Assembly: GCF_014876185.1 (NCBI RefSeq)
Contig: NZ_JADALJ010000001.1
Location: 1,302,001 to 1,366,000 of the forward strand
DNA length: 64,000 nucleotides
Origin: Rufibacter sp. LB8
GTDB lineage: Bacteria > Bacteroidota > Bacteroidia > Cytophagales > Hymenobacteraceae
Reading direction: 5' to 3'
Part shown: positions 5,689-62,270 of the stretch, one piece after another
Position numbering within the stretch: the stretch's first letter is position 1
Layout of the letters: every line of letters starts with the position of its first letter
Position numbers and translations under genes: made by a program
The notes under the pieces: generated by a model
Seen by the model: only the letters and a program-made list of their open reading frames with translations
What the model was told of the DNA's origin: nothing
The model's database searches: none

Positions 5689-5728
5689 CCGTTTTTGGCC
5701 TCATTTCCGGAAATGAGGCCAAAAACGG
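5689..5728. repeat. 40-bp palindrome, copy 1 (perfect)
   Basis: The copy begins on the base after the tamB-like stop codon. Both 20-base halves are exact reverse complements (left half CCGTTTTTGGCCTCATTTCC). Compared with the family consensus, two arm positions are changed together with their pairing partners, so pairing is kept. Confidence 0.95.
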
Positions 5729-5760
5729 AACCCTACCCCTGCATGTTCTAAATAAATGCA

Positions 5761-5768
5761 TATTTTTG
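5761..5768 (+). promoter_or_regulatory. Candidate -7 promoter element for the ftsX operon
   Basis: TATTTTTG fits TAnnTTTG and lies 16 bp before the ftsX ATG, leaving a leader of about 10 nt. No good TTG is visible at the -33 position. Confidence 0.4.
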
Positions 5769-5783
5769 CAGCCACACACCTCT

Positions 5784-6680
5784 ATGGCTAAACCGCTCAA
5801 ACATACGCGTAAGAAAAAGCTGGGCAATTACCCGCACACCATGGTGATCTTCAGCATTACCCTGGCGCTTTTTGTGATAGGCCTGTTTGGCTTGCTCCTC
5901 ATCCATGCCAAGAAACTCTCAAACCTGGTCAAGGAGAACATTGAAGTGCAAGTCTACCTGGACCGTGACATCACGCCCTTGGAGGTGGAGAAGCTGAAAA
6001 AGACGCTGGCCCGCAAAGAATACATTGCCTATCATGCCTCTGAGCCGCAGGTCACGTTCTTCTCCAAAGAGCAGGGCGCCAAAGAATTCATTGAAGAAAG
6101 CGGCGAAGACTTCCTAACCTTTTTGGGCGAAAACCCGCTGCGCGATGCCTTTATTCTGCGCGTAAACCCAGAATTCGCCACTTCAGCCCAGCTTAAAAAA
6201 ATAAAGCATGACCTGCAGAACACTGTGGGAGTGTACGAAGTGGAATACGTGGAGAGCCTGATTGACTCCATCAACCAAAACCTGAACAAGCTGAGCATTC
6301 TGTTGATTTCCTTCGCCGGAATTCTGGTGCTGGTGGTGATTATTCTGATTAACAACACCATTAAATTGGCGCTTTTCTCCCAACGGTTCTTAATCAGGAG
6401 CATGCAGTTAGTGGGCGCCACTTCGTTTTTCATACAGAAACCCTTCTTGAACCGGGCCATTTTTCAGGGTATTGTGAGTGGCTTGCTGGCCGCTGGGCTT
6501 TTGTTTGGCTTGCTGCAGTATGTGTACCATGAGATGAGCGAACTCTACCTACTCCGTGACGAAAAACAAATCATGCTCTTGCTGGTGGCGCTATTGGTGC
6601 TGGGCGGCGTGCTGGGTTTCCTGAGTTCCTACCGCTCCGTGAGAAAATACCTCAGATCCTCTTTAGACGATTTATATTAA
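5784..6680 (+). CDS. ftsX: Cell division protein FtsX
   Basis: FtsX is the membrane subunit of the FtsEX ABC-type complex, which links the division ring to activation of peptidoglycan hydrolases. The 298-residue protein has a basic cytoplasmic start and one transmembrane segment at about residues 22-45. An extracytoplasmic loop follows (about 50-165), then three more membrane segments in the FtsX permease domain, as expected. I choose the ATG at 5784 rather than the in-frame TTG at 5766, since the TTG lies inside the likely -7 box. It heads a compact operon with the DUF3098 gene, uppP, truB and ribF. Its ATPase partner FtsE is encoded about 52 kb away on the other strand. Confidence 0.93.
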   Translation: MAKPLKHTRKKKLGNYPHTMVIFSITLALFVIGLFGLLLIHAKKLSNLVKENIEVQVYLDRDITPLEVEKLKKTLARKEYIAYHASEPQVTFFSKEQGAKEFIEESGEDFLTFLGENPLRDAFILRVNPEFATSAQLKKIKHDLQNTVGVYEVEYVESLIDSINQNLNKLSILLISFAGILVLVVIILINNTIKLALFSQRFLIRSMQLVGATSFFIQKPFLNRAIFQGIVSGLLAAGLLFGLLQYVYHEMSELYLLRDEKQIMLLLVALLVLGGVLGFLSSYRSVRKYLRSSLDDLY

Positions 6681-6692
6681 GCTATACCCTAT

Positions 6693-6914
6693 ATGGAAAA
6701 TCAGAACCGGACGCCCTTTGCTTTTGGCAAGCGCAATTACCAAATCATGTTGCTGGGCCTGGCAGTAATGGCCATTGGTTTCATTTTAATGGCAATGGAC
6801 TCTGAGCCGTACGGGTATGGTTTCTTAGGCCTCACATTAGGGCCAATTGTGCTGATGGTGGGCTTCATCATTCAGTTCTTCGCCATTTTTGCCAAACCCC
6901 GTAAAGACGTTTAA
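6693..6914 (+). CDS. DUF3098 small membrane protein
   Basis: This is a 73-residue protein with two hydrophobic segments (about residues 17-35 and 44-66) separated by a short loop containing SEPYGYG. It matches the DUF3098 family, found in Bacteroidota between ftsX and uppP. Its function is unknown. The context, between a division permease and a lipid-carrier phosphatase, suggests an envelope role, but that is inference. It starts 12 bp after ftsX, and its TAA overlaps the ATG of uppP, so translation is probably coupled. Confidence 0.85.
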
Positions 6915-7756
6915 TGGATATCTGGCACGCCATCATCCTCGCCATTGTGGAGGGGCTCACTGAATTTCTGCCGGTTTCCTCTACCGGACACATGGTCATT
7001 GCGTCCAGCCTTATGGGCATCAGTGCCTTTGAGTTCACCAAGATGTTCACGGTCACCATACAGTTTGGGGCCATCTTGTCTGTGGTGGTGCTGTACTGGA
7101 AACGGTTCATCAATTCCTTTGACTTCTACAAGAAACTGCTGGTGGCGGTAATTCCGGCGCTGGCCATTGGGTTCATGGTGAAAGACGCTATTGACGCCAT
7201 GCTGGAACGCGTAGAGATTGTGGCCATCAGTTTATTGGTGGGCGGCGCGATCCTCATCTTCGTGGACAAATGGTTCACAGACCGGGAAAACCCCGTGACC
7301 ACGCCAAGTTACAAAAATGCGCTGGTGATTGGCTTGTTCCAGTGTTTGGCCATGATTCCGGGGGTTTCCAGGTCAGCATCCTCCATTATTGGCGGTTTGA
7401 CCCAGGGCATGACCCGTAAATCAGCGGCGGAGTTCTCATTCTTTATGGCCGTGCCCACCATGTTGGCTGCTGCTTCCTACAGCGTGCTCAAAGATCTGCT
7501 GCATCTGGAAATTTCTGATGTGGTGATGTTTAACATACCTAAAATTCAGGAAAGCTTTGCCGCCATCACCACCCAGGAATGGCAAGCGCTGGCAATAGGC
7601 AATGTGGTGGCCTTTTTGGTAGCCATGGCCGCCATTAAGTTCTTTGTGGGCTTTCTGACCAAGCACGGCTTCAAGCTGTTTGGCTATTACCGAATTTTAT
7701 TGGGGCTGGTGATCCTTATCTTATTAGCCCTGGGCGTAGACATTCAATTAGTGTAA
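6914..7756 (+). CDS. uppP: Undecaprenyl-diphosphatase UppP (BacA family)
   Basis: UppP removes a phosphate from undecaprenyl diphosphate, recycling the lipid carrier used for peptidoglycan and surface polysaccharides; loss or excess changes bacitracin sensitivity. Both family motifs are present: [15 protein letters not shown] near residues 13-27 and [13 protein letters not shown] near 150-162. The 280 residues hold about eight hydrophobic segments, matching the usual size. The start overlaps the stop of the DUF3098 gene and the end overlaps the start of truB. Supply of this lipid carrier would also serve the glycan loci in this window. Confidence 0.97.
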
Positions 7757-9472: not shown

Positions 9473-9877
9473 ATGTTCAAAAGCATTCTTTCTGTTCTGG
9501 GCGGCACCGCCCTGGGCGTGTTCACCATTGGCGTCATTCAATACCTTGGGTCGCAGGTGTACCCGTTGCCCGCCGGTTTAACGTCCAATGATTCAGTGGC
9601 CATGGCTTCTTACCTGGAGCAGGCCCCCGCTGGCATGTTGTTGCTGGTGCTGCTGGCCTATGCCTTCGGTTCTTTCTTTGGCGGTATGCTGGGTGCGCGT
9701 TACGCACCTGGTAAACCTATCGGTCATGCTTTGGCGGTCGGGATTATCCTGCTCTTGTTCGGGATTACGAACCTCTGGATGATGCCCCACCCCATCTGGT
9801 TTGTGGTGGCCGCCGTGGTGGTCTTTGTGCCCATGGCTTTCTTTGGCGGCATGATGTCCTCTAGGAGAATTCCTTGA
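9473..9877 (+). CDS. Small integral membrane protein, unknown function
   Basis: This is a 134-residue protein with about four hydrophobic segments (roughly residues 5-25, 50-70, 80-100 and 105-125). Glycine-rich motifs such as [15 protein letters not shown] lie between segments two and three. I do not recognise a named family. The glycine-zipper look and the short loops resemble small Bacteroidota membrane proteins of unknown role. It stands alone between ribF and the CoA-transferase genes, with about 100 bp upstream and a palindrome copy just after its stop. Confidence 0.7.
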
Positions 9878-9887
9878 TTTTACCTTT

Positions 9888-9927
9888 CCGTTTTCGGGCT
9901 CATTTTCAGAAACGAGCCTAAAAACGG
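9888..9927. repeat. 40-bp palindrome, copy 2
   Basis: It lies 11 bp after the stop of the small membrane-protein gene and 38 bp before the CoA-transferase A gene. The left arm is consensus; the right arm is diverged (GAGCCTAAAAACGG). Confidence 0.9.
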
Positions 9928-10691: not shown

Positions 10692-11345
10692 ATGCTAGAT
10701 AAACACGGAATAGCGAAAAGAATTGCCCAGGAAGTAGAGGACGGGTTTTACGTGAACCTGGGAATAGGAATACCCACCTTGGTGGCCAACTATATTCCCG
10801 AAGGAATGAACGTGGTGTTGCAGTCTGAAAACGGGCTGTTGGGCATGGGCCCCTTCCCTACTGAGGACCAGGTGGACCCAGATTTGATTAATGCGGGCAA
10901 GCAGACGGTGACTACTTTGCCCGGCTCGGCGCTGTTTAGTTCAGCGGAGAGCTTTGCCATGATCAGGGGCGAGCACGTGCAGTTGACCATTCTGGGTGCC
11001 ATGGAAGTTTCTGAGCGCGGCGATATTGCCAACTGGAAGATTCCGGGCAAGATGGTGAAAGGCATGGGCGGCGCTATGGATTTGGTGGCCTCGGCCAAGA
11101 ACATTATTGTGGCCATGCAACACACTTCCAAAGACGGACAATCCAAGCTTTTGAAAAATTGCTCGCTGCCCATCACCGGCCTTAACTGCGTGAAGAAAAT
11201 TGTGACAGATTTGGCGGTGTTGGAGGTAACCGCAGAGGGCTTTAAACTGCTGGAGCGCGCACCGGGCGTGTCGGTAGAACAGATTCAGGCTGCCACTGAA
11301 GGGAATTTAATCATTGAAGGCGACATCCCGGAAATTATAGTCTAG
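10692..11345 (+). CDS. scoB: 3-oxoacid CoA-transferase subunit B
   Basis: This is the beta subunit of the CoA-transferase, carrying the catalytic glutamate that forms the enzyme-CoA thioester. That residue is Glu46 in the motif SENGLLGMG. Other family marks are [13 protein letters not shown] near residue 22 and GGAMDLV in the middle. It is 217 residues, the normal size. A palindrome copy starts 32 bp after its stop. Confidence 0.94.
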
Positions 11346-11377: not shown

Positions 11378-11417
11378 CCGTTTTCGGGCTCATTTCTGGA
11401 AACGAAGCCAAAAACGG
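11378..11417. repeat. 40-bp palindrome, copy 3
   Basis: It lies 32 bp downstream of scoB. The centre reads CTGG, the reverse orientation of the common CCAG loop; the right arm has GAAGCCAAAAACGG. Confidence 0.9.
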
Positions 11418-11540: not shown

Positions 11541-13094
11541 ATGAGTGAAACTACAGAACATAAATTAATCCTTCGGCCCCTCACCTCCGCCGACTACAAA
11601 GAGGTGAAACAGATTATGGAACTGGTCTACACCACCATTGGCGGCTCCTGGACCAGTAAAGAGTTTAACTCGCTGCTTAAGCGCTTCCCAGACGGCCAAT
11701 TGTGTATTGAAGACAAAGGCCGCGTGGTGGCCGCCGCGCTGAGCTTAATTGTTGATTACTCTGAGTACGGCGACAAGCACACCTATGAAAAAATAACCGG
11801 TGGCGGAAAGTTTGACACCCATGATGATGACGGCGACACGCTGTATGGAGTTGACGTTTTTGTACACCCAGAATACCGCAACCTACGCCTGGGCCGCCGT
11901 TTGTATGATGCCCGTAAGGAACTCTGTGAGAATCTGAACCTGCGCGGCATCATCTTAGGTGGCCGCATACCGGGCTACAAAGAGCATTCAGACAAGATGA
12001 CGCCGGGCAAGTACATTGAGCAGGTCCGGAACAAGGAAATCTACGATCCGATCCTCACCTTTCAGCTCAGCAATGGCTTCCACGTTAGAAAGATCATTAG
12101 AGGCTACATGCCCCAGGACAAGGAATCTAAAGCCTATGCGTCTTTGCTGGAGTGGATTAACGTGTACTATGAAGAAAAGGAAACGCTGGTAGGCGGAACC
12201 AAGAAAGTGGTGCGTATTGGCGTGATTCAGTGGCAGATGCGCCAGATGAATTCCCTGCAGGATTTTGAGCAGCAGCTGGAGTTTTTCGTGGACACGGTGA
12301 GTTCTTACAAGGCAGACATGGTCTTGTTCCCCGAGTTCTTCAACGCGCCTTTGATGGCCCTCACTGATGAAAAATCGCCCTCTGCAGCCATCAGAAAACT
12401 GGCGGAATATACAGATGGCATTCGGGAGAAATTGATTCACCTGGCGCTTTCTTACAACATCAACATTATTGCGGGCAGCATGCCTGAGTACATTGAGAAC
12501 AAGTTGCACAACGTAAGCTACCTCTGCCGAAGAGACGGGACTTATGACAAGCAATACAAGCTGCACGTAACGCCAGATGAAGCTCACTATTGGGGAATGC
12601 GCGGCGGAAATAAGCTGAATGTGTTTGACACTGACTTCGGGAAGATTGGTATTTTGATCTGCTATGACGTGGAGTTCCCGGAACTGGCGCGTATGCTCTC
12701 TGACCAGGAAATGAAAGTCTTGTTCGTGCCTTACCAGACAGATACCAAGAATGCGTATCTGCGTGTTCGTCATTGCGCCCAAGCCCGCGCCATTGAAAAC
12801 GAGTGCTACGTGGCCATCACAGGCAGCGTGGGTAACTTGCCGCGCGTGGAGAACATGGACATCCAGTATTCGCAGTCAGCGGTGTTCTCGCCGTCAGACG
12901 TGGCGTTTCCGCATGATGCCATCATTGCCGAGGCCACGCCCAATACGGAGATGACATTGATTGCCGATCTGGATCTGGACTTGCTCAAAGACCTGAACAC
13001 CACCGGCAGCGTCCGCAACCTGCGTGACCGTAGAAAGGACTTGTACAACCTGAGCTGGCTGCACCAGAAAGAAGACGATTTAACCGAGATTTAA
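11541..13094 (+). CDS. Fused GNAT acetyltransferase and carbon-nitrogen hydrolase
   Basis: The 517-residue protein joins two enzymes. Residues about 8-185 form a GNAT acetyltransferase domain, with the acetyl-CoA loop region RNLRLGRRLYDAR at 113-125. Residues about 224-505 form a nitrilase-superfamily amidase with the complete Glu-Lys-Cys triad: E265 (FPEF), K340 (YKLHV) and C374 (ICYD). Single proteins with this arrangement are known in Bacteroidota and elsewhere, but their substrate is not established; an amide made or broken next to an acyl-transfer step is a reasonable guess. It is monocistronic, ending in a strong terminator. Confidence 0.9.
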   Translation: MSETTEHKLILRPLTSADYKEVKQIMELVYTTIGGSWTSKEFNSLLKRFPDGQLCIEDKGRVVAAALSLIVDYSEYGDKHTYEKITGGGKFDTHDDDGDTLYGVDVFVHPEYRNLRLGRRLYDARKELCENLNLRGIILGGRIPGYKEHSDKMTPGKYIEQVRNKEIYDPILTFQLSNGFHVRKIIRGYMPQDKESKAYASLLEWINVYYEEKETLVGGTKKVVRIGVIQWQMRQMNSLQDFEQQLEFFVDTVSSYKADMVLFPEFFNAPLMALTDEKSPSAAIRKLAEYTDGIREKLIHLALSYNINIIAGSMPEYIENKLHNVSYLCRRDGTYDKQYKLHVTPDEAHYWGMRGGNKLNVFDTDFGKIGILICYDVEFPELARMLSDQEMKVLFVPYQTDTKNAYLRVRHCAQARAIENECYVAITGSVGNLPRVENMDIQYSQSAVFSPSDVAFPHDAIIAEATPNTEMTLIADLDLDLLKDLNTTGSVRNLRDRRKDLYNLSWLHQKEDDLTEI

Positions 13095-13144: not shown

Positions 13145-13184
13145 CCGTTTTCGGGCTCATTTCCCGAAATGAGCCCGAAAACGG
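13145..13184. repeat. 40-bp palindrome, copy 4
   Basis: It lies between two convergent genes, right behind a normal terminator. Arms match perfectly and pairing extends four bases outward (TTTT/AAAA), giving a 22-bp stem. Confidence 0.95.
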
Positions 13185-16650: not shown

Positions 16651-18111
16651 GTGATTAAGAAAATAGCCGCCAACAAGCATGTTAAAAACGTTTCCTGGAA
16701 CGTAGCCGAAGCCGTTTTATACCCGGCGGCCTTGCTGGTAGCCACGCCTATCTACCTTTCTGCCTTAGGCGATGAACTCTACGGCCTCTGGACCCTCATG
16801 ACCTCCATTATTGTGAGCATTGGCGTGGTGAACGGTGGCCTGGCCGACACCACCATTAAATACATTTCAAAGTACAGGGCCCTGCAGGACCATGCTACCG
16901 CCCAGCGGATCTTCAGAACCACCCTCACCTGGACCTTGCTCATAGCCCTGGCCATTCTGTGCTTGAGCCCCGTCCTTTCCTATGGAATTGTTACGTTTGA
17001 CCTTTTTGAAATCCCCAATTCTCTCACTCAAAGTACCATTCTCTATTTAAACATCAGCTTTATCACGCTGGCCTTTAAACTGATAGAACAGATTTTTTAT
17101 GCGTACTACAAGGCCTATGAGCGGTTTGATGTGTTTTCCAAAGCCTCCATCGCCGTAAAAGTGGGCACCATTGTCTTGAATGTGCTTTTGTTGCTGGCGG
17201 GGTATGGGCTGTTGGCGGTTTTGCTTTCCACGTTGGTACTTTCGTTTTTGCTACTCATACTCGTTATTTTAAAAACGGGCCACGAAACCGGATTCAAGCA
17301 GCTAATGCCCTTGTTTGACAAAAACATAACCGCCGAGCTACAGCAATTCACTAAATGGTCCTGGTTGCAGACGGTGATTGGGGTGGCCAACTCCCAGATG
17401 GACAAGTTTCTGGTGGCTTCATTGGTCAGTTTAGAGATGTTGGCCTATTATTCCATTGGCCTAATGGTGGTGAACCAGATTCACATGGTCTTGACTACTG
17501 CCGCCAGCACTGTTTTTCCGCTCATTTCCAGAATGGAGGCCAAAAATGAAACCACTGACACGTTGTTCCTGAGCCTGCAGAAATTGGTTACGGTGGCTGG
17601 CATGTTAATTATTCTGCATCTGCATCTGGTGAAAGAATTTGTATTCACGGCCTGGCTGGGACCAGAAATCTTTCAGAGGTCCTCTGGCCTGCTTTTCTAT
17701 TTCTTCGCCTATTTAATGGTGGCCAGCACTTCAGTGATGCCTAATTTTTATTTGTTGGGATCTGGCAAAATCAAGGAAAACGCGCTAAGCTTGGGCTTTA
17801 ATGCCTTGGTGACCGTTGCGGCCATGCTGGCGTTGTTTGCGGTGTTAGGCGTGGAAGGATTGGTGATTGGGAAAGCCCTGGCGTTGTTCCTGACCATTAC
17901 GCTGGTGTTCCTTTACCTTAAAAAGACAAGCATGCCGCACCTTTCCGCGTTTTCCTTGTTCCAAACCTTGCTTTTGTGTTTGGCCGGCATTGCGGTTTTA
18001 GCTGTTGACCAGACGTGGCTGACGGTGGCCATCATTTTATATCTTTATTATTTGGTGGTTGAGTTGGTGAGAAAGAATAGTTTTGCAAAAAAGTTATTCG
18101 CCAGATCTTAG
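16651..18111 (+). CDS. Oligosaccharide flippase (Wzx/MATE-like)
   Basis: This is a 486-residue membrane protein with about 12-14 hydrophobic segments and the early motif WNVAEAVLYPAALLVATPIYLSALG cut by short loops, as in polysaccharide-export flippases. It would move lipid-linked glycan units across the inner membrane. The start is a GTG at 16651, since no ATG precedes the conserved first segment. Residues 288-300 (VFPLISRMEAKNE) are encoded by a stretch that matches the intergenic palindrome at 30 of 39 bases, with 14 in a row identical. It is followed by a glycosyltransferase 25 bp downstream. Confidence 0.88.
   Translation: MIKKIAANKHVKNVSWNVAEAVLYPAALLVATPIYLSALGDELYGLWTLMTSIIVSIGVVNGGLADTTIKYISKYRALQDHATAQRIFRTTLTWTLLIALAILCLSPVLSYGIVTFDLFEIPNSLTQSTILYLNISFITLAFKLIEQIFYAYYKAYERFDVFSKASIAVKVGTIVLNVLLLLAGYGLLAVLLSTLVLSFLLLILVILKTGHETGFKQLMPLFDKNITAELQQFTKWSWLQTVIGVANSQMDKFLVASLVSLEMLAYYSIGLMVVNQIHMVLTTAASTVFPLISRMEAKNETTDTLFLSLQKLVTVAGMLIILHLHLVKEFVFTAWLGPEIFQRSSGLLFYFFAYLMVASTSVMPNFYLLGSGKIKENALSLGFNALVTVAAMLALFAVLGVEGLVIGKALALFLTITLVFLYLKKTSMPHLSAFSLFQTLLLCLAGIAVLAVDQTWLTVAIILYLYYLVVELVRKNSFAKKLFARS
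17510..17550. repeat. Possible in-gene copy of the 40-bp palindrome (flippase)
   Basis: From 17512 the sequence matches the consensus at 30 of 39 positions, including the unbroken run GCTCATTTCCAGAA. It is read in the frame that gives VFGLISRNEPENG from the consensus and VFPLISRMEAKNE here. The position inside a conserved flippase segment means chance cannot be fully excluded. Confidence 0.5.
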
Positions 18112-20133: not shown

Positions 20134-20173
20134 CCGTTTTCGGCCCCGTTTTCAGAAATGAGCCCGAAAACAG
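20134..20173. repeat. 40-bp palindrome, copy 5
   Basis: It starts 10 bp after the Wzy-like gene. The left arm is diverged (CGGCCCCGTTTTC) while the right arm stays consensus except for a final AG. Confidence 0.88.
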
Positions 20174-22694: not shown

Positions 22695-22734
22695 CCGTTT
22701 TCAGGCTCATTTCCAGAAACGGGCCCGAAAACAG
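22695..22734. repeat. 40-bp palindrome, copy 6
   Basis: It starts 4 bp after the O-antigen-ligase gene. Pairing extends outward with AATT on both sides; both ends carry CCTG-like variants of the arm. Confidence 0.9.
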
Positions 22735-25712: not shown

Positions 25713-27355
25713 GCAAACGGTTTTTTTTATGGTTCGCCGGTTTAATGGTTTCTGTGAGCAGTCTTGCGCAGCAGCAGAAACCGTGCTTTTTGGCCTACAA
25801 TAAAAATAACCAGCCCGTGCAAACCATTTGTGTAGGACAGCGCATTAGTTTCAGAGACAACACCGGCCAAGGCAAAGTGCCCGAAGCCTATGACTTTGAT
25901 GACCGTGACGGCCTGGACTTCACGCAAGCAGACACGGTGTTTACCTTCACCACTCCCGGCAGATTCACCGTCACTCAGTTAAGAGGAATTGGCAACATCT
26001 GCCCCCGGGTGATTGAAGTAAAAGCCGCCGCCCCGGCCGCGCCACCTGTGTTGCAGAAACTCACCCTGCAGTCTACCGGAATTCTACTGCAACTTCAATC
26101 CAGCGCGGTCAATGAACTGGTGGTGGAACAGGCCACTTCCCCATCTGGGCCATTTACAGAAGTAGGCAGAATTGCAGCGGCCCCGGCAGGCCAGAGTGAA
26201 CATACCATTACGGTTGCCACTGTTACCGGCTGCTTTAGACTGCGGGTGACCAATGTATGTACTGGCGAAGAAACCATTGTCTCCAACGTGGTCTGCGCCC
26301 AGGATTTGCAGGTAACCGCCGCTGATCGCCAGAACCAGCTCAACTGGAATATTAATCAAAGCGGTGCAGCTTCTTACCAGATCTTCCGGAACGGGCAACT
26401 TTACCAAACGGTTCCCAACAGCCAGACTTCTTTCACAGACACGCAAGTGGCCTGCGGCCGAAGCTACACGTATCAACTGGTAGCACAATTCCCCAACAGC
26501 AGCCAGAGCGCCTCGTTGGCCCGGCAAGTAGAAACCTTGGGCACCACACCCCCGGCCCCGCCATTTTTGGTGGCCAGTTTCAATGCCCAGAACCAAGTGG
26601 TGCTCAACACCAACAATCCCGCCCAGGAATCCTTTAAAACCCAAACCATTTACCGAAGCCTAGCCGGAGGCGTTTTTGCCCTCATTTCTGAAAACCAGCC
26701 CAAAAACGCCCTTGACGCTTCGCTGCAAAATTTCAACAGCCCGGTCTGCTACCAAACCACCTACCTTGATTCCTGCAACCTGACCTCGCCCAGAAGCAAC
26801 ACGGCTTGCCCTGCCCTGCTTGTGGCCACATTGCAAGCAGACGGCAGCGTGCAGTTGACCTGGAACGCGTATGAAGGCTTTCCCGGTGGCTCCCCCACCC
26901 AAACCCTGGAACTGCTGGACGAACAGGGAACCGTTTACTGGACCACACCCGTCACTGGCCAGGCATTTACAGACGTGCAGCCCCAGCAAAAATTCCAGCG
27001 GCTCCGGTACAGATTGAAAACCGAAGCGCCAACCGGCGATTTCCAAAGTTTTTCTAACACCGTCACCCTGGACCAGCCTTTCCAGTTTTATTTTCCTACC
27101 GCCTTTAGCCCTAATAATGATGGTCTGAATGATCTGTTTAAGGCGTTGGGGTCCCAATTTGCCACGTCGTTCTCATTGCAGGTGCTCAACCGCTGGGGGC
27201 AGATCATCTTTGAGGCAAAAGACCCCACCCAGGGCTGGGACGGTACCTACAACGGAAAACCCGCCCCACCAGAAACGTATCTGTACAGGTTGCAGGCAGT
27301 GGATGTGCAAGGCCAGAAAATTACCAAAAGCGGCACGGTGACATTGGTGCGGTAA
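25709..27355 (+). CDS. Secreted protein with type B T9SS C-terminal domain
   Basis: This 548-residue exported protein has a signal peptide at residues 1-20 (ending SLAQQ) and an N-terminal PKD-like region with FDDRDG. Fibronectin-III-like repeats follow. The C-terminal domain, from about residue 455 (FPTAFSPNNDGLNDLF through NRWGQIIFE, GWDGTYNG and GTVTLVR), is the gliding-motility/CHU_C type B sorting domain for the type IX secretion system. Residues 322-334 (VFALISENQPKNA) come from an apparent in-frame palindrome copy. The TTG start overlaps the hutH stop. The binding target is unknown. Confidence 0.9.
   Translation: MSKRFFLWFAGLMVSVSSLAQQQKPCFLAYNKNNQPVQTICVGQRISFRDNTGQGKVPEAYDFDDRDGLDFTQADTVFTFTTPGRFTVTQLRGIGNICPRVIEVKAAAPAAPPVLQKLTLQSTGILLQLQSSAVNELVVEQATSPSGPFTEVGRIAAAPAGQSEHTITVATVTGCFRLRVTNVCTGEETIVSNVVCAQDLQVTAADRQNQLNWNINQSGAASYQIFRNGQLYQTVPNSQTSFTDTQVACGRSYTYQLVAQFPNSSQSASLARQVETLGTTPPAPPFLVASFNAQNQVVLNTNNPAQESFKTQTIYRSLAGGVFALISENQPKNALDASLQNFNSPVCYQTTYLDSCNLTSPRSNTACPALLVATLQADGSVQLTWNAYEGFPGGSPTQTLELLDEQGTVYWTTPVTGQAFTDVQPQQKFQRLRYRLKTEAPTGDFQSFSNTVTLDQPFQFYFPTAFSPNNDGLNDLFKALGSQFATSFSLQVLNRWGQIIFEAKDPTQGWDGTYNGKPAPPETYLYRLQAVDVQGQKITKSGTVTLVR
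26670..26709. repeat. In-gene copy of the 40-bp palindrome (T9SS protein)
   Basis: Ungapped alignment gives 29 of 40 matches to the consensus, and the ends still pair (GCGTTTTTG with CAAAAACGC). The reading frame is the same as that of the flippase copy, giving VFALISENQPKNA where the consensus gives VFGLISRNEPENG. It sits between fibronectin-like units, where an insertion would be tolerated. Confidence 0.65.
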
Positions 27356-27395
27356 GTGTTTTCGGGCTCAATTCTGGAAATGAAGCCAAAAACGG
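27356..27395. repeat. 40-bp palindrome, copy 7
   Basis: It starts directly after the TAA of the T9SS protein gene. The first two bases are GT instead of CC, and the centre is CTGG. Confidence 0.9.
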
Positions 27396-29588: not shown

Positions 29589-29628
29589 CTGTTTTCGGCT
29601 TCATTTCCAGAAATGAGCCCGAAAACAG
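29589..29628. repeat. 40-bp palindrome, copy 8
   Basis: It lies 26 bp after the glycosyltransferase stop. It has the CT/AG-ended variant on both sides (CTGTTTTCGG with GAAAACAG), so the end pair is kept. Confidence 0.92.
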
Positions 29629-31797: not shown

Positions 31798-31837
31798 CTG
31801 TTTTCGGTCTCATTTCCAGAAATGAGCCCGAAAACGG
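31798..31837. repeat. 40-bp palindrome, copy 9
   Basis: It lies between the MITE-like element and ybaB, 143 bp before the ybaB ATG. It is the copy furthest from an upstream stop codon among those in same-strand gaps. Confidence 0.92.
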
Positions 31838-35479: not shown

Positions 35480-35519
35480 CTGTTTTCGGCTTCATTTCCA
35501 GAATTGAGCCCGAAAACGG
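35480..35519. repeat. 40-bp palindrome, copy 10
   Basis: It starts 4 bp after the TPR lipoprotein stop. One base next to the loop is changed (GAATTGAGCCC). Confidence 0.92.
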
Positions 35520-36667: not shown

Positions 36668-36707
36668 CTGATTTTGGCGCCATTTCCAGTTTAGAGCCCA
36701 AAAACGC
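36668..36707. repeat. 40-bp palindrome, copy 11 (diverged)
   Basis: It lies between the pdhB hairpin and a lipoprotein ATG only 9 bp downstream. It is one of the most diverged copies (ATTTTGGCGCC left, GAGCCCAAAAACG right), but length and layout are kept. Confidence 0.75.
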
Positions 36708-37165: not shown

Positions 37166-37205
37166 CCGTTTTCGGGCTCATTTTCAGAAATGAGCCCGAA
37201 AACGG
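37166..37205. repeat. 40-bp palindrome, copy 12
   Basis: It lies between two convergent genes (lipoprotein and methyltransferase). The arms pair out to CTTT/AAAG, giving a stem of about 22 bp. It is the only terminator-like structure in this gap. Confidence 0.95.
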
Positions 37206-43943: not shown

Positions 43944-43983
43944 CTGTTTTCGGGCTCATTTTGGAAAATGAGCCCGAAAACGT
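43944..43983. repeat. 40-bp palindrome, copy 13
   Basis: It lies 56 bp after the hybrid kinase and 27 bp before the DinB gene. The centre TTTTGGAAAA is more symmetric than in the consensus. Confidence 0.9.
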
Positions 43984-45313: not shown

Positions 45314-45353
45314 CCGTTTTTGGCCTTATTTCCAGAAACGAAGCCGAAAACGT
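45314..45353. repeat. 40-bp palindrome, copy 14
   Basis: It lies in a convergent gap directly before the terminator at 45354. Arms are moderately diverged (TTTTTGGCCTTATTT left, AACGAAGCCGAAAACG right). Confidence 0.85.
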
Positions 45354-46907: not shown

Positions 46908-46947
46908 CCGTTTTGGGGCTCATTTCCAGAAACGGGGCCAAAAACAG
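46908..46947. repeat. 40-bp palindrome, copy 15 (divergent gap)
   Basis: This is the only copy in a gap between two diverging genes (ffh and a glycosyltransferase), so it cannot be acting as a terminator of either. It is diverged (TTTTGGGGCTC left, GGGGCCAAAAACAG right), with some paired changes. Confidence 0.85.
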
Positions 46948-48318: not shown

Positions 48319-48358
48319 CCGTTTTCGGGCTCGTTTCTAGAAATGAGCCCGAAAACAC
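48319..48358. repeat. 40-bp palindrome, copy 16, containing a start codon
   Basis: It lies 8 bp after the glycosyltransferase stop. The right arm provides the ATG (48343) and the first codons (MSPKT) of the deacetylase-like gene, so the gene's start region lies inside the hairpin. Confidence 0.92.
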
Positions 48359-49770: not shown

Positions 49771-49810
49771 CCGTTTTCGGCTCCGTTTACAGAAATGAGC
49801 CCGAAAACGC
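49771..49810. repeat. 40-bp palindrome, copy 17
   Basis: It ends 13 bp before the flippase ATG and follows the deacetylase stop by 72 bp. The left arm is diverged (CGGCTCCGTTTAC). Confidence 0.9.
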
Positions 49811-53090: not shown

Positions 53091-53204
53091 TTGGGAATTA
53101 AGAAGTAGGAATTAAGAATTGTTTGATAATGGAATTATGAATTGCAAGGATAGGTATGGGTCGTATCCAGAAATTCTTAATTCCTAATTCTCAATTCTTA
53201 ATTG
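53091..53204. repeat. AT-rich inverted repeat, copy A
   Basis: The edges, about 32 bp each, are imperfect inverted repeats built of GGAATTAAGAATT-type units, around a 45-bp centre. The right arm overlaps the end of the oxidoreductase gene and provides its TGA stop and last codons (IKN). A second copy of the same family is at 58.5 kb. Confidence 0.75.
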
Positions 53205-54227: not shown

Positions 54228-54267
54228 GCGTTTTCGGCTTCATTTCCAGAAATGAGCCCGAAAACGG
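54228..54267. repeat. 40-bp palindrome, copy 18
   Basis: It lies between two minus-strand genes, 18 bp after the DegT stop and 11 bp before the oxidoreductase ATG. The reverse complement of its left half contains an in-frame alternative ATG at 54243. Confidence 0.92.
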
Positions 54268-55639: not shown

Positions 55640-56497
55640 ATGAAAACCTCAATTTTTAAAACGCCTGCCATTCTTTGTGCCACCGCACTAGGGCTGGCCT
55701 TTACCCAAGTGTCTTGCTCCAAAACCGAGAGCACCGAGACCAGCACCACCACCACAACCACCAGAGAGCAAGCCTACAATGACTATAAAGACTATGTAGC
55801 TTCTTTGGAATCTGATGTGGAACGCGGTTGGGACACCACCACCACCGACGGTGAGGCCCGCATGAACCAGTACCGCACAGACTATGAAACCAGAAGCGCG
55901 GCCGTGGCCCGCTATGAAAACGAATTAGACGAAACCCAGAAGCAGGAATATGCACAATTGCAGTCACGCTACAACACCGCCTGGGCTACTCGCGAAGAGC
56001 AGTACAACACCTGGATGGCCAACAACCAAAGCGGCGGAAACGCCATGTCTAAAGTAGACATGTCTTCGTTGGATAACAGCAAAATCCCGAGCTATACCGC
56101 TACTGACATCAGAACTGCCTATGAAGCTTTTGTGGCCCACGTTGACGCCAACAAATCTAATTTCAGCAATGATGACTGGAAAACCGTGGAAACCTACTGG
56201 AACCAGTTAGATGACCGTAAAAACGCCGTGCAAAGCCAACTGTCTGACAAAGACAAATGGGAAATTGCCAAAGCCAAAACCAAGTACATTGCTATGAAAA
56301 ACGCCAGCAAACTAGGTAACTCTGCTGAAAACGTAGGTTCGGGTGCCAAGGAAGTTGGGAAAGATGTAGGTTCCGGCGCGAAAGAAGTTGGAAAAGACAT
56401 TGGATCTGGCGCTAAGAAAGTAGGAAAAGCCATTGGCAACACCGTAAAAAAAGGTACTGAGAAGGTAGACAACAAACTGGACGACGATAATAATTAA
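55640..56497 (+). CDS. Lipoprotein with LEA-like C-terminal repeats
   Basis: This 285-residue lipoprotein has its lipidated Cys26 in TQVSC, a Thr-rich linker and a charged helical domain (about 45-225). Three near-identical 11-residue repeats GSGAKEVGKDV/I/GSGAKKVGKAI form a tail resembling LEA or apolipoprotein-type amphipathic repeats. The function is unknown; stress or desiccation protection at the envelope is a guess from the repeat type. The ATG at 55640 gives a normal signal peptide. A terminator follows. Confidence 0.78.
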   Translation: MKTSIFKTPAILCATALGLAFTQVSCSKTESTETSTTTTTTREQAYNDYKDYVASLESDVERGWDTTTTDGEARMNQYRTDYETRSAAVARYENELDETQKQEYAQLQSRYNTAWATREEQYNTWMANNQSGGNAMSKVDMSSLDNSKIPSYTATDIRTAYEAFVAHVDANKSNFSNDDWKTVETYWNQLDDRKNAVQSQLSDKDKWEIAKAKTKYIAMKNASKLGNSAENVGSGAKEVGKDVGSGAKEVGKDIGSGAKKVGKAIGNTVKKGTEKVDNKLDDDNN

Positions 56498-56565: not shown

Positions 56566-56605
56566 CCGTTTTCGGGCTCATTTTCAGAAATGAGCCCGAA
56601 AACGG
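56566..56605. repeat. 40-bp palindrome, copy 19
   Basis: It lies in a convergent gap right after a normal terminator, as copy 4 does. Pairing extends to TTTT/AAAA, a 22-bp stem. Confidence 0.95.
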
Positions 56606-56611: not shown

Positions 56612-57496
56612 CTATTTCAGATTCTGGCTCAGCCATAACAAGCGGTACACGTCAAATGCATAAAGCGAGGGCTTCTTCCCTTGCAATTGTTTCTCCAGCA
56701 AAGGCAAAAGCCAGGATGAGTTCAAATTTAAAATGCCCAAGACTCTAAACCGCTTTAACTTGAAATAAAGTTGAAACAACCTGGTTTCCTGGCCTAAGCC
56801 TAACTTTTGCTGCAATAAAACAAGGTTCTGTAGCGCCTGCTTCGTTTTATCCAGAAACACCGGTGCTGCCTCCAGGCCCAGATGCCACACCGGGTTGTCC
56901 AGATGCTTCACTTGAATGTTAGCCTGCTGCAGTTCAAACGCGAAAAGTGTGTCTTCATGGCCGTAGCCTTGCAGCGCATTCCCGGAAAAGTATTTCAAAA
57001 ACAGGTCTTTGGGCGCCAGCAGATTGCTGAAGAAGACACGCTGATACGGAGCCTTTTGCCTTTGCTCGGCATTGGCTTGTTCCCGTTCACGCCCGTATTT
57101 CCAGCGCAGTTCTGTTCCTGGTAGGCACGTGTCTGCATAGGTCACCCCTCCTACCATAATCCCGGAAGAATCTTCCTGCACATAGGTCTGCAAAAATGAG
57201 TCCTGCACGGGCAGTACATCATTGTCCAGGAAAAGTAGATTAGGGAATTTAGCGTCTCGGGCCAGTTTCAACCGGATTTGGGTGCGGCCCAGGTTCTGGG
57301 GCAACTCTTGGTACACTACCTGCGCGAGGGCGGCAACGGCTTGGTTCTGGATTTTGGTTTCTGAGTTGGAGCCATCGTCATAGACTCTTATCTCAAAAGA
57401 AATGGGCAGGGCTGTGGCCTGTTGGTGCAGCCGTTGCACCAGCGCCAATACCGGTTGGTTAAAGACAGGAATTAAAATGGAAATCTCAGAAACCAT
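56612..57496 (-). CDS. Family 2 glycosyltransferase
   Basis: This 294-residue GT-A enzyme has ISILIPVFNQPVLALVQRL at the start, the motif YDDGSNSET, and FLDNDVLPV (DxD metal site) near residue 92. The middle GYGHEDTLFAFELQQ is the E-D catalytic motif. It transfers a sugar to an unknown acceptor. Its ATG overlaps the last 11 bases of ftsE, an unusual partner, so the two are probably co-transcribed. Confidence 0.88.
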   Translation of the reverse strand: MVSEISILIPVFNQPVLALVQRLHQQATALPISFEIRVYDDGSNSETKIQNQAVAALAQVVYQELPQNLGRTQIRLKLARDAKFPNLLFLDNDVLPVQDSFLQTYVQEDSSGIMVGGVTYADTCLPGTELRWKYGREREQANAEQRQKAPYQRVFFSNLLAPKDLFLKYFSGNALQGYGHEDTLFAFELQQANIQVKHLDNPVWHLGLEAAPVFLDKTKQALQNLVLLQQKLGLGQETRLFQLYFKLKRFRVLGILNLNSSWLLPLLEKQLQGKKPSLYAFDVYRLLWLSQNLK

Positions 57497-58485: not shown

Positions 58486-58490
58486 TTTCT

Positions 58491-58576
58491 ATTAATTAGG
58501 AATTGGGAATTAAGAATTAGGAATGTATTGGCGCACTAACCAATTCTTAATTCCTAATTCTCAATTCTTAATTAAA
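58491..58576. repeat. AT-rich inverted repeat, copy B
   Basis: The left arm (TTAATTAGGAATTGGGAATT onward) and the right arm (ending CTCAATTCTTAATTAA) pair imperfectly over about 34 bp around a 16-bp loop. It belongs to the same family as copy A at 53.1 kb. It fills the gap between the transaldolase-like gene and the small conserved gene. Confidence 0.75.
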
Positions 58577-58593
58577 GAAGTTCTTAATTAAAA

Positions 58594-59250: not shown

Positions 59251-59271
59251 AGCAGGTTCACGTTTGAAATA

Positions 59272-59279
59272 CAAATCTA
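59272..59279 (-). promoter_or_regulatory. Candidate -7 element for the transaldolase-like gene
   Basis: It reads TAGATTTG on the minus strand, 21 bp before the ATG; there is no clear TTG at -33. Confidence 0.35.
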
Positions 59280-59379
59280 CTTCAATCCGGCAGAAAACCG
59301 AACGCGCCCGACAAGTATTTTAAAAGGAAGTGCTGGAAAGGAAAGAGAAGGGAACCGTTGCGGATTGGGCAAAAAAAAG

Positions 59380-59472
59380 CGGCAAACCGAGTATCGCGCC
59401 GCTCAACCACCTACCCTTGCTCCCTTCCGGGCCTGGGGGAGTTCAGCAGGAGCTGGCCGTACCGATTTGCCG
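59380..59472 (-). ncRNA. ffs: Small bacterial signal recognition particle RNA (4.5S type)
   Basis: On the minus strand this 93-nt region has the SRP RNA domain IV core: CCAGGCCCGGAAGGGAGCA, with the GGAA-type tetraloop and the asymmetric internal loop bound by Ffh. The ends pair (CGGCAAA with TTTGCCG), closing the rod-like molecule. A T run follows at the 3' end (59372-59379 as A on the plus strand), and a good promoter stands directly upstream. It would combine with Ffh (45.4-46.8 kb) in protein targeting. It was recognised by sequence and fold. Confidence 0.93.
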
Positions 59473-59475
59473 ATG

Positions 59476-59505
59476 CAAAGATACAAACACTTTCTGGCCC
59501 CGCAA
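59476..59505 (-). promoter_or_regulatory. Promoter of the SRP RNA gene
   Basis: On the minus strand TTG (59505-59503) and TATCTTTG (59483-59476) are 19 bp apart, a textbook Bacteroidota promoter. Transcription would begin at about 59472, just where the terminal helix of the RNA begins. Confidence 0.8.
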
Positions 59506-59565
59506 GCCTGCCTGCTTATATTTTCTACTGTTTTGGCTAAGAGGCTGGGCATCAAACAAAAATTC

Positions 59566-59605
59566 CTGTTTTCGGGCTCATTTCCAGAAATGAGCCCGAA
59601 AACAG
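59566..59605. repeat. 40-bp palindrome, copy 20
   Basis: It lies 26 bp after the lipoprotein stop (minus strand) and upstream of the SRP RNA promoter. Pairing extends to AATT on both sides, giving a 50-bp inverted repeat (59561-59610) with only the CCAG loop unpaired. Confidence 0.95.
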
Positions 59606-59631
59606 GAATTCAGATTACCTAATAAGATCGG

Positions 59632-60288
59632 CTAGCCTTTGCGGGCTTTCAGGTTCTCAAAAGAGATATTAAGGTTTCGGCTGGAGCCACTGGCCTTGAA
59701 CAGGTTTCCGTTACGGTTAGGGAAGGCGTAGTCCGGCACAAAGTAATCAAGCGGCAGTTTCAGTTTCACAATAGAGCCAGACAACACCTTGGTCCTGGCA
59801 TCATACAATAAAGAAATGGCACCGTCAGTGACCTCAATACAGCCCGGCGACATGGCGCGGGTTCCATCTTTAAAGGTCTGTCCGTTCTGCACGCACACTA
59901 TTTCCGCCTCTTTCAAAGCCTGCGTGGCGGGTAAGTTGGCCAGCGTTCTGTTTTTAAAATGGATGGTGAGCCACGAAGAAACCTCGTCAGAAGACGTGTC
60001 CTTAAAATAAAGCGTCACGCCGCCGTTCTCTTCAAAGTAAAAAGCGTCCAGTTTGTCTTGGGCGAACACTTCATAGGTTTTGCCGTGGTAATTCTGGTAG
60101 GCTTCGGGGCTGGCATTCTTATAATAGGTATCTACTTTAATGCTATCCACCAAGGAGAAAGAAGTTTTGGTTGGCCCAGCCACCGGCACGGGTTCTACCT
60201 CCTGGTCTGCGTGGCAGGACGCCAGCAGCGCCAAGAAGGCCAGCACGCCCATGGTGTTTTTAAAAGTATGGAGTATGGTTGTCAACAT
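59632..60288 (-). CDS. Lipoprotein of unknown function
   Basis: This 218-residue lipoprotein has its Cys25 in LLASC. The mature part is beta-rich, with Asp/Lys/Gly turns and an unpaired Cys pair (VCVQNG and PGCIEV). I see no recognised domain. A second in-frame Met at residue 13 would give a shorter but normal signal peptide, so the start is uncertain. It stands alone between the SRP RNA and the MITE-like element. Confidence 0.75.
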   Translation of the reverse strand: MLTTILHTFKNTMGVLAFLALLASCHADQEVEPVPVAGPTKTSFSLVDSIKVDTYYKNASPEAYQNYHGKTYEVFAQDKLDAFYFEENGGVTLYFKDTSSDEVSSWLTIHFKNRTLANLPATQALKEAEIVCVQNGQTFKDGTRAMSPGCIEVTDGAISLLYDARTKVLSGSIVKLKLPLDYFVPDYAFPNRNGNLFKASGSSRNLNISFENLKARKG

Positions 60289-60495
60289 TTAATGTCTTAT
60301 AGAATAAGGAAGTACCTGGCATTATAATAGATGAAAGCAATGCCGGACTACCCATTCAAAGCAAAAGATATGCCTAATATGGCGGAATCTGACTATTATT
60401 TATGCTGCTCAAGATGATTTCTTTCAAACCACTCTATGTATAGACAGAAAATGGCTGCTTCTCCCCTACGTGCACGAAATTAAGACAAGGCCTTA

Positions 60496-60655
60496 GAGCT
60501 TGTTTAAATTTTGATTTAGCCAGCGAAAACAGGGAGCGAAAGGTTCTGGCGAAGCGTTTTTTGAGTAGCGTAGCAGCGCTACGGTAAGAGAAAAAGGCGA
60601 TGCCAGGTTCTTTTGATGCCTGTTTGCAGCGCAAAAGACAAATTTAAACATGCTC
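60496..60655. mobile_element. MITE-like element, 160 bp
   Basis: Terminal inverted repeats GAGCTTGTTTAAATTT and, from the right end, GAGCATGTTTAAATTT differ at one of 16 bases. TTA flanks both ends, as a 3-bp target duplication would. The centre is GC-richer and contains an inner inverted repeat (GTAGCGTAGCAGCGCTAC). An open frame across it (60434-60634, minus) reads as a by-product. It is probably a non-autonomous insertion; its transposase is not in the window. Confidence 0.7.
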
Positions 60656-60661
60656 TTAACT

Positions 60662-60695
60662 TTGTTTTAACTTTCAACTGTCCCGTGTACCTTTG
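60662..60695 (+). promoter_or_regulatory. Promoter of guaA
   Basis: TTG at 60662-60664 and TACCTTTG at 60688-60695 are 23 bp apart. The -7 box ends three bases before the ATG at 60699, so the transcript is probably leaderless. Confidence 0.6.
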
Positions 60696-60698
60696 CAC

Positions 60699-62228
60699 AT
60701 GCCAGAAAAGATACTCATCCTAGATTTTGGGTCTCAATACACCCAGCTGATTGCCCGCCGCGTGCGCGAGTTGAACGTCTACTGTGAAATTGTCCCGTTC
60801 AACAAAATCCCGGAACTTACCCCAGACACCAAAGGCGTCATCTTGTCGGGGAGCCCTAGTTCTGTGCGGGAGGAAAATTACCCCAATCCAGGTTTGACTC
60901 CGTTTTTAGGCAACTTGCCGGTGCTGGGTGTGTGTTACGGCGCACAGCTTATGGCGCAGGAAGGCGGCGGCGAAGTGATTGCCTCTACCATTAGAGAATA
61001 CGGCCGCGCCAAGCTCAACCACGTGGACCAACACAACCGCCTGTTCAAAGAAATCACCCTGGACTCGCAGGTTTGGATGAGCCACGGCGATACCATCAAG
61101 CGCATAGCCGATAATTTTGAGATCATCGCTAGCACAGAATCTGTGCAGGTGGCCGCTTATAAAGTAAAAGACCAGGAAACCTACGGCATTCAGTTTCACC
61201 CAGAAGTCACCCACTCCACCGAGGGCAAAACCTTGCTCCGGAACTTTGTGGTGCACATCTGTGAGTGTTCGCAAGATTGGACGCCGGACCAATTCATTGA
61301 AAGCACCGTAGCTGAACTCAAAGCCCAGATTGGCGATGACAAGGTAATCTTAGGCTTGTCAGGTGGCGTGGATTCCAGCGTGGCGGCCATGTTGATCCAT
61401 CAGGCCATCGGCAAAAACTTGTATTGCATTTTTGTAGACAACGGCTTGCTGCGGAAGAATGAGTTTGAAGACGTGCTGCACTCTTACAAAGACATGGGCC
61501 TGAACGTGAAAGGCGTTGACGCGAAGGACTTGTTCTATTCGGCGCTAGCCGGGCTCACCGACCCAGAAGCCAAGCGTAAAGCCATTGGCAAGGTGTTCAT
61601 TGACGTGTTTGACCAGGAATCACACCAGGTGGAAGACGCCAAATGGCTGGGCCAGGGCACAATTTACCCAGACGTGATTGAGTCGGTGTCCGTGAAAGGC
61701 CCGAGCGCGACCATAAAATCGCACCACAACGTGGGTGGTCTGCCAGATTACATGAAACTGAAAGTGGTGGAACCGCTCAAGACTTTGTTTAAAGACGAAG
61801 TTAGGTTAGTGGGCAAGACCCTGGGCATTGCTGATACTATCATCGGGCGGCATCCGTTCCCGGGTCCGGGCTTGGCCATCAGAATCTTAGGCGACATTAC
61901 CCCGGAGAAAGTAGCCATTCTGCAGGAAGTAGATCACATCTTCATTTCTTCGTTGAAAAAAACGGGCTTGTATGACCAGGTGTGGCAGGCGGGCGCTATG
62001 CTGTTGCCTATCCAGAGCGTAGGCGTAATGGGCGATGAGCGCACCTATGAACGCGTGGTGGCCCTCAGAGCCGTGTCCAGTATTGACGGCATGACCGCCG
62101 ATTGGTGCCACTTGCCGTATGAGTTCCTGGCCGATGTCTCCAACGAGATTATCAACAAGGTGCGCGGCGTGAACCGCGTAGTCTATGACATCAGCTCCAA
62201 ACCACCCGCTACCATTGAGTGGGAATAA
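60699..62228 (+). CDS. guaA: GMP synthase (glutamine-hydrolysing)
   Basis: GuaA converts XMP to GMP. The class I glutamine amidotransferase half has the nucleophile in GVCYGAQLM near residue 79 and the His/Glu of FHPEVTHS. The ATP-pyrophosphatase half has LSGGVDSS near residue 221, and the GMP synthase C-terminal part has the [15 protein letters not shown] pattern. The ATG at 60699 ([16 protein letters not shown]) is the natural start, 509 residues. Its -7 box is directly adjacent, so initiation may be leaderless. Confidence 0.97.
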
Positions 62229-62230
62229 TT

Positions 62231-62270
62231 CCGTTTTCGGGCTCTATTTCTGAAATACATGAAAAAACGA
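62231..62270. repeat. 40-bp palindrome, copy 21, right arm turned into a gene start
   Basis: The left arm is intact (CCGTTTTCGGGCTC), starting 2 bp after guaA. The right arm is heavily changed and now reads ATGAAAAAACGA, the start of the next gene (62259). Length and position still fit the family. Confidence 0.75.

Follow-up and report, generated by a model that had tools for sequence, protein, structure and literature searches.

What does a 40-bp palindrome do when it recurs behind the genes of a bacterial chromosome? The question is raised by a stretch of 64,000 nucleotides from Rufibacter sp. LB8 (contig 1, 1302001-1366000, of genome G000, 4.75 Mb in 2 contigs), which is called the window here. 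A reading of the letters alone, the sequence-only reading, had listed 21 intergenic copies of such a palindrome in the window and had taken the host for a member of the Bacteroidota, correctly so for a Rufibacter. In this study, the copies were checked and the palindrome was followed through the genome and its relatives. The evidence favours recognition of the palindrome as double-stranded DNA by a putative symmetric protein, with some effect of pairing left over. We give a probability of roughly 0.47, slightly below even odds, to the palindrome being the docking site of such a protein at the boundaries of transcription units.

Each of the 21 coordinates was scored by the number of bases matching the 40-base consensus CCGTTTTCGGGCTCATTTCCAGAAATGAGCCCGAAAACGG. 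Nineteen copies are strong (32-39 of 40 bases) and two, at 36668 and 62231, are decayed, with 9/20 and 8/20 pairs, respectively; in five Markov shuffles of the window (320 kb), the top score was at most 25. Besides the two degenerate copies at 17510 and 26670 (Table 1), the sequence-only reading had missed weaker matches at 52124 (27/40) and at 20863 and 23657 (26/40 each), and window matches scoring 25-27/40 are near chance. The matches at 17510, 23657 and 26670 are inside gene models; since the two degenerate copies lie in reading frames, coding DNA can tolerate the palindrome. Searched in the whole genome at up to three mismatches, the pattern GTTTTYGGSYTCATTTNNNNAAAYGARSCCRAAAAC gave 1,665 forward and 1,659 reverse matches, and its reversed control gave none. 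As the element is palindromic, these counts indicate about 1,660 elements in the genome, of which at least 40 show the consensus without a single change in the 40 bases. The proposed family is therefore real, present genome-wide and larger than the sequence-only reading had stated; its absence from the rest of the genome, which would have refuted it, is excluded by these counts.

The half-site in LB8 is GTTTTYGGSYTCRTTT, and the palindrome consists of two inverted copies of it 4 bp apart; TTT/AAA flanks on both sides bring the site to about 46 bp. Over 764 kb of contig 1, the half-site pairs that passed the threshold were inverted with a 4-bp centre in 271 cases and with a 5-bp centre in 1, and other arrangements were single cases among those listed. 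At 19 bits, 539 half-site hits included 10 isolated ones (2 in genes), and some of these are cut at the end of a stretch or belong to decayed palindromes. Two half-sites of one motif at a fixed distance are the geometry expected for the sites of a symmetric DNA-binding protein. The statement that the copies are always 40 bp long nearly holds, the departures being the single 5-bp centre and one 39-bp variant in a relative. The latter, the G051 counterpart of the strong copy 71070 in the joined G042 stretch (L230), has a shortened centre and is the clearest exception to the fixed length. Arm complementarity in LB8 reached 14.76 of 18 pairs, compared with 14.66 after random re-pairing of the arms (z 1.5, 284 copies), so the palindromic look arises mostly because both halves obey one motif. 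The four conserved T/A tracts have their centres close to positions 5, 17, 24 and 36, and their mean spacing of 10.3 bp (simple arithmetic) places them roughly on one face of the helix.

A position census was performed on the 764 kb of contig 1 with copies of at least 30 bits and gene models from our own codon-score caller, which missed some genes. It placed 165 of 284 copies in tandem gaps, 78 in convergent gaps, 25 in divergent gaps, 5 in genes and 11 at the ends of stretches. Among gaps of at least 80 bp, 140 of 226 tandem and 24 of 74 divergent ones held one or more copies, and among convergent gaps of at least 40 bp, 59 of 68 did, which bears out the suggested preference for gene ends. 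The same order was seen at equal gap size (80-149 bp), where a copy was present in 19/22 convergent, 33/64 tandem and 1/11 divergent gaps. The median distance to the upstream stop was 21 bp (63 copies in tandem gaps below 400 bp, first LB8 sample). The claim that window copies follow a stop codon within 75 bp stands for 19 of the 21 by the gene models used here and fails for those at 31798 (288 bp) and 46908 (divergent genes). A position between transcription units of every orientation, chiefly at 3' ends, suggests a boundary role. Two further regularities were considered and dropped. Regular spacing for chromosome folding was rejected, the coefficient of variation being 0.85 versus 0.71 for a random choice of gaps, i.e. 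more uneven. An orientation of the loop with respect to transcription, 27:6 in the first 89 copies, fell to 44:21 in the enlarged set of 165 (about 17:15 among those added) and is not claimed.

The distribution of the palindrome was investigated in a genus sample that included R. ruber CCM 8646 (G060), R. glacialis (G057), Rufibacter sp. XAAS-G3-1 (G037) and Sabulibacter ruber (G045), and in wider sets. Among 120 genomes of the family, the LB8 spelling gave its 1,665 matches in LB8, up to 158 in 15 other genus members and 0-1 elsewhere. A de novo inverted-repeat search of other genus members revealed the same frame in another spelling at the same gaps. Score models built for each species found 24-51 candidate copies per 57-80 kb in each of 15 relatives at a low threshold (16 bits), and copy counts in relatives depend on the threshold: G006 and G057 had no copy of 30 bits with the later models, yet both had copies at orthologous places with the earlier ones, and G006 has 76 matches to the generic pattern GTTTNNNGNCTNNTTTNNNNAAANNAGNCNNNAAAC. 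Allowing one mismatch, this pattern was searched in 390 genomes of the order (129 genera). It gave 76-1,280 matches in all 8 genus members and one match each in 4 of 382 others, and its control, one match in 2 genomes. In 331 kb from 10 genomes of five other genera, the palindromes were varied and many of them terminator-like, and none was recognised as being of this kind. Within the range sampled, the palindrome is thus restricted to the genus. A related genus (g2) has another local repeat family: in G001, four copies of a different palindrome, similar to AAACGCTATACTTTT..AAAAGTATAGCGTTTTT, were seen within 3 kb (L050 11455-14286).

Within the genus, the places of the palindrome are conserved. 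In the gaps around the histidine-kinase gene of the window, orthology was tested for the seven gaps with at least five single copies of 30 bits or more, and 61 of 73 single copies departed by no more than 8 bp from the median place in the gap concerned. The counterpart of the copy at 35480 lies at -4 to +18 bp in 12 relatives (two below 30 bits), and that of the copy at 46908 lies 133-136 bp from the SRP54 gene in 13 of 15 relatives (144 bp in LB8). The gap of the copy at 48319 holds one copy in 12 of 15 genomes, all at 3-8 bp, none in 2 and two in 1; in the gap of the copy at 49771, the copy deviates from the median place by at most 8 bp in 11 of 14 genomes. Orthology supports the decayed copy at 36668 as genuine, since copies occupy the same gap, 61-66 bp past the stop, in all 9 relatives with a matched gap.

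The spelling of these inherited sites differs between species. When LB8 was compared with four relatives (6 shared gaps each), orthologous copies were alike at 25.0-28.3 of 40 bases and non-orthologous ones at 24.7-27.6, while copies within LB8 shared about 33. Descent was visible in the closer pair G042-G051 (31.7 for orthologous versus 24.8 for non-orthologous copies). The inner motif CTGTTTT of other species appears as CTCATTT or CTCGTTT in LB8. Within-genome identity was 32.6 in LB8, 29.8-30.9 in G022, G017, G048 and G060, and 25.1-28.4 in the other nine genomes measured. A species' own dialect fitted best for 281 of 294 chromosomal copies in LB8, 119/142 in G060, 83/94 in G048, 21/24 in G022, 17/26 in G017, 14/22 in G012 and 14/28 in G063, counts that are partly circular because each model was built from the copies that it scores.

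Some copies in LB8 score best in the dialect of another species. Among the 13 chromosomal misfits, three lie within 0.9 kb (contig 1, L109 766-1695) and fit the R. ruber dialect, one of them narrowly; one further palindrome (L111 9135) scores best in the same dialect. The L109 and L111 copies in R. ruber spelling may be marks of acquired DNA. The second contig (155 kb) yielded just 2 copies in the 100 kb covered (L028 976 and 2550); one fits the R. ruber dialect and the other, narrowly, that of G017 (51.0 versus 50.3 for LB8). By the dialect of its two copies, this contig looks as if it came from another Rufibacter. Dialect may flag foreign DNA, as in the pair on contig 2 and the chromosomal cluster of three in another spelling, with two of the five narrowly assigned.

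Position-specific constraint was examined in the closer relatives G042 and G051 over about 80 kb, where divergence was 0.277 at third codon positions and 0.167 in intergenic DNA outside palindromes (0.208 within 60 bp of one). In 19 gap-free aligned palindromes, positions 4, 16, 17, 23, 24 and 36 never changed, positions 5, 6 and 35 changed in 5% and the centre (19-22) in 42-63%. This indicates that the T/A tracts are held and the remainder drifts. A 40-bp copy stood at the matching place in the other genome for 23 of 25 mapped copies; 4 of 29 copies could not be mapped. In a smaller comparison of five pairs, palindromes changed faster than the rest of the gap in three pairs and not in two, and they had fewer gap columns in four of the five.

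If the palindrome is a docking site, the putative protein would bind as a symmetric dimer or tetramer on the two half-sites 4 bp apart. The bound protein would form a boundary, either by stopping read-through RNA polymerase or by keeping the transcription-driven supercoils of neighbouring units apart. The sites have been passed down in place across the genus, and a drift in the protein's preference would have caused them to be rewritten in step, giving the species dialects. Among the functions that the sequence-only reading had offered, binding of a regulator or nucleoid protein (here a putative one) fits best, and mRNA 3' stability is poorly supported.

Several results weigh against a docking site. 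Copies are present in 24 of 74 divergent gaps as well. The arms covary at position 8 in LB8 (z +5.6), and this coupling is positive in 13 of 13 relatives, with values above 2 in eight; overall arm matching exceeded random re-pairing in 12 of 13 relatives tested, with z 2.0-3.2 in six. Pairing therefore plays some part, by selection or by template switching. Palindromes diverged between G042 and G051 by 0.198 per site, not more slowly than other intergenic DNA, and gap columns were equally frequent in both, most of those in palindromes being alignment shifts in view of the 23 of 25 copies matched by a 40-bp copy. Averaged over 22 species pairs, identity was 28.5 of 40 for orthologous copies, 26.8 for non-orthologous copies and 28.1 within a genome; the first and the last of these averages hardly differ, so strong dialects belong to certain species only. 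The search for a binder covered two protein families and gave no candidate: A subunits of type II topoisomerases (gyrase/topoisomerase IV) numbered 2 in all 37 genomes and HU-HIG proteins 1-3 per genome, with nothing special to the genus. An extra topoisomerase or HU-HIG gene was accordingly rejected, there being no difference between the genus and others. The arms of LB8 also covary at positions 1, 2 and 14 (z +3.1, +4.4 and +3.4) and are anti-correlated at positions 11, 12 and 15 (z -2.0, -2.3 and -4.9); no single model covers both the covariation at position 8 and the anti-correlation at 11, 12 and 15.

The rival that survives best is an RNA element, a transcribed hairpin that protects mRNA 3' ends or aids termination, which we consider unlikely. 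The strong 3'-end preference, the capacity of the sequence to form a hairpin, the covariation at position 8 in LB8 and its relatives and the arm matching in 12 of 13 relatives all agree with such an element. An RNA hairpin tolerates G.U better than A.C, which was taken as the premise of a strand-sense test. No excess of G.U was found in LB8, where the 165 copies that take their orientation from tandem genes have 151 G.U and 162 A.C (p 0.57), and pooled relatives showed a slight one (315 versus 273, p 0.09). The arms of LB8 barely beat random re-pairing overall, a hairpin has no need of a nearly invariant 4-bp centre, and copies occur between divergent genes, one of them at a conserved place. 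Thus, the mRNA 3' role raised by the sequence-only reading has little support from the balance of G.U and A.C in LB8 and from the weak coupling of its arms.

The flanks and the neighbouring terminators speak against this RNA element as well, and plain terminators were rejected on the same grounds. A T-rich flank was found on the 3' side of 49 of 165 copies and on the mirrored 5' side of 37 (p 0.21; intergenic baseline 179/955), i.e. there is no T-tract polarity. Intrinsic terminators, called by our own scanner, are present alongside at their usual frequency. In the first LB8 sample (gaps of 60-600 bp), convergent gaps held a terminator in 20 of 27 cases, a palindrome in 25 and both in 18; tandem gaps held a terminator in 25 of 111, a palindrome in 68 and both in 18. 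Tandem gaps had a palindrome in 18 of 25 cases with a terminator and in 50 of 86 without, which does not suit an element that makes up for missing terminators, and terminator rates in other genera were similar (16/20 convergent, 25/98 tandem). The palindrome resembles bidirectional intrinsic terminators as an inverted repeat in convergent gaps; unlike them, it has a T run at its 5' foot and an A run at its 3' foot, and true terminators stand beside it. The earlier argument that the copies are not terminators only, which would have fallen had all of them been plain terminators, is upheld by the 18 convergent gaps that hold both.

A second rival, in our judgement rather improbable, dispenses with a dedicated protein: phased T/A tracts would bend the DNA and place supercoils, and template switching in replication would keep the arms alike. 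The four conserved tracts, spaced at about one helical turn, and the covariation at positions 1, 2 and 8 in LB8, as template switching could give, are consistent with this. Bending leaves the species-specific GC positions and the nearly fixed 4-bp centre unexplained.

An uptake sequence of the kind known from Neisseria and Haemophilus, spelt in species dialects, is quite improbable. Dialects of uptake sequences are a known phenomenon, e.g. in Neisseria. Known uptake sequences are roughly 10-12 bp long, and single unpaired copies are common, also in genes. Like the uptake sequences of Neisseriaceae (DUS) and Pasteurellaceae (USS), the palindrome numbers hundreds to thousands of copies, comes in dialects, although some species have weak ones, and forms inverted pairs at gene ends; it is a motif at the DNA level without strand sense and has few copies on the second contig. 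Unlike them, it is almost always paired (10 isolated half-sites among 539), about 46 bp long and rare in genes (5 of 284 copies). The chromosome-organising sites parS, matS and Noc boxes are likewise dispersed chromosomal palindromes, and they are bound by dimers, as is proposed here; they occur in tens of copies, unlike the roughly 1,660 copies found here, which are tied to gene boundaries.

The palindrome also falls within the description of a repetitive extragenic palindromic (REP) element as a high-copy extragenic palindrome of 20-40 bp, having about 1,660 copies of 40 bp with 5 of 284 in genes. A mobile element of this type would be spread by a Y1 tyrosine transposase (REP-associated tyrosine transposase, RAYT). 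Its dispersed, high-copy intergenic occurrence and the copies identical to the consensus agree with this, and six PF01797 (Y1 transposase) proteins were found in LB8, one of IS200 size and five of RAYT size. The IS200-sized gene has palindromes 119 and 191 bp away on its two sides. The nearest copies of the five RAYT-like genes are at 125, 399 and 1,031 bp in three cases, overlap the 5' end in one and are absent from a 3.2-kb locus in the last; none of the five has copies close on both sides, and ordinary genes have a median of 98 bp to the nearest copy (n=514). Two similar RAYT-like genes lie within 1.1 kb on opposite strands (contig 1 2135678-2136732), a possible inverted duplication. PF01797 occurs in 51 of 60 family genomes: the genus accounts for 13 (of 14 members) and genera free of the palindrome for 38 (of 46 genomes). 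It is missing from G017, which has palindromes. The search for a REP-associated transposase, which the sequence-only reading had proposed, thus gave candidates with no clear link to the palindromes.

REP and BIME elements of the GTAG and CGTC super-families (PMC3733652) are, like the palindrome, short high-copy intergenic palindromes at the ends of transcription units and not plain terminators. Unlike them, the palindrome stands at orthologous places across the genus without a clear transposase link, and its half-sites are almost only paired with a 4-bp centre. The flank tables show TTT/AAA on both sides and, at neither end, an unpaired tag of the GTAG or CGTC type. According to PMC6006769, Bacteroidetes RAYT genes of subclass 2.6 are flanked by atypical structures that have copies elsewhere in the genome, and this subclass is also described there without GT[AG]G; by this description, an ancient RAYT origin is conceivable. 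Present mobility fails to explain the conserved places of the palindrome, and a REP-like element spread by a RAYT is very improbable as the explanation. Of the kinship with REP-type families that the sequence-only reading had seen, the single repeat family and the preference for gene ends stand, and present-day mobility does not, with 61 of 73 copies in place.

Table 1. Copies of the palindrome in the window, with the bases matching the 40-base consensus and the neighbouring genes (window coordinates; strand in brackets)
Feature	Position	Match	Context
Palindrome copy	5689..5728	35/40, perfect pairing	Immediately after stop of TamB-like gene 1024-5688
Palindrome copy	9888..9927	36/40	10 bp past stop of gene 9473-9877
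Palindrome copy	11378..11417	34/40	32 bp past stop of gene 10692-11345
Palindrome copy	13145..13184	39/40	Convergent genes 11541-13094 (+) / 13193-14083 (-)
Degenerate copy	17510..17549	30/40	Within polysaccharide-synthesis gene 16651-18111
Palindrome copy	20134..20173	35/40	10 bp past stop of gene 18903-20123
Palindrome copy	22695..22734	36/40	4 bp past stop of gene 21386-22690
Degenerate copy	26670..26709	29/40, 47.9 bits	Within gene 25745-27355 (CHU_C domain)
Palindrome copy	27356..27395	32/40	Immediately after stop of gene 25745-27355 (CHU_C domain)
Palindrome copy	29589..29628	36/40	26 bp past stop of gene 28402-29562
Palindrome copy	31798..31837	38/40	288 bp past a stop, 143 bp before gene 31981-32316
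Palindrome copy	35480..35519	36/40	4 bp past stop of gene 33676-35475
Decayed copy	36668..36707	28/40	64 bp past stop of gene 35659-36603
Palindrome copy	37166..37205	39/40	Convergent genes 36717-37145 (+) / 37228-37944 (-)
Palindrome copy	43944..43983	34/40	56 bp past stop of hybrid histidine kinase gene 41536-43887
Palindrome copy	45314..45353	33/40	Convergent genes 44604-45089 (+) / 45426-46763 (-)
Palindrome copy	46908..46947	34/40	Divergent gap, SRP54 gene 45426-46763 (-) / gene 46991-48310 (+); 144 bp from SRP54
Palindrome copy	48319..48358	36/40	8 bp past stop of gene 46991-48310
Palindrome copy	49771..49810	34/40	72 bp past stop of gene 48343-49698
Palindrome copy	54228..54267	37/40	18 bp past stop of gene 54286-55425 (-)
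Palindrome copy	56566..56605	39/40	Convergent genes 55640-56497 (+) / 56612-57496 (-)
Palindrome copy	59566..59605	38/40	26 bp past stop of gene 59632-60288 (-), upstream of SRP RNA gene (59376-59479, -)
Decayed copy	62231..62270	28/40; left half-site 23.4 bits, right half decayed	2 bp past stop of GMP synthase gene 60699-62228

Two other features of the window were recorded. A Bacteroidales small SRP RNA (RF04183) lies at 59376-59479 (-), in the same window as the SRP54 gene (45426-46763, -), and it alone reached the gathering threshold in an Rfam scan. An exact 32-base repeat, AATTCTTAATTCCTAATTCTCAATTCTTAATT, occurs twice, at 53172-53203 and 58542-58573, 5.4 kb apart.

Dispersed extragenic palindromes are known as a kind. 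Unlike REPs, this one stands at inherited places and has no clear link to a transposase; near-obligatory pairing distinguishes it from uptake sequences, and an inverted T/A polarity from terminators. To our knowledge, no bacterial chromosome has been described with a sequence-specific protein mark at most of its gene boundaries. Among the matches listed in the open-access literature on repeats or intergenic palindromes of Bacteroidetes, Hymenobacteraceae or Rufibacter and on repeats at gene ends, no paper dealt with this palindrome by its title, and the main text of PMC12306157 has no mention of Rufibacter, Hymenobacter or Cytophag-.

In sum, the palindrome of Rufibacter may be a docking site at the boundaries of transcription units. 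More tentatively, it could be a lineage-specific punctuation, in which a putative symmetric protein at about 1,660 sites acts as a genome-wide insulator, protein and sites change together and the whole set is rewritten in place in some species. A dedicated boundary factor, if true, would make the system categorically new. If such a protein binds, a bacterial insulator or supercoil barrier could be studied in Rufibacter at more than 1,000 natural test sites. The genus is also a natural evolutionary experiment, since the sites keep their orthologous places but are spelt differently from one species to the next, and it makes testable what rewrites a dispersed set of sites, be it selection for a changing protein, biased exchange or mutation.

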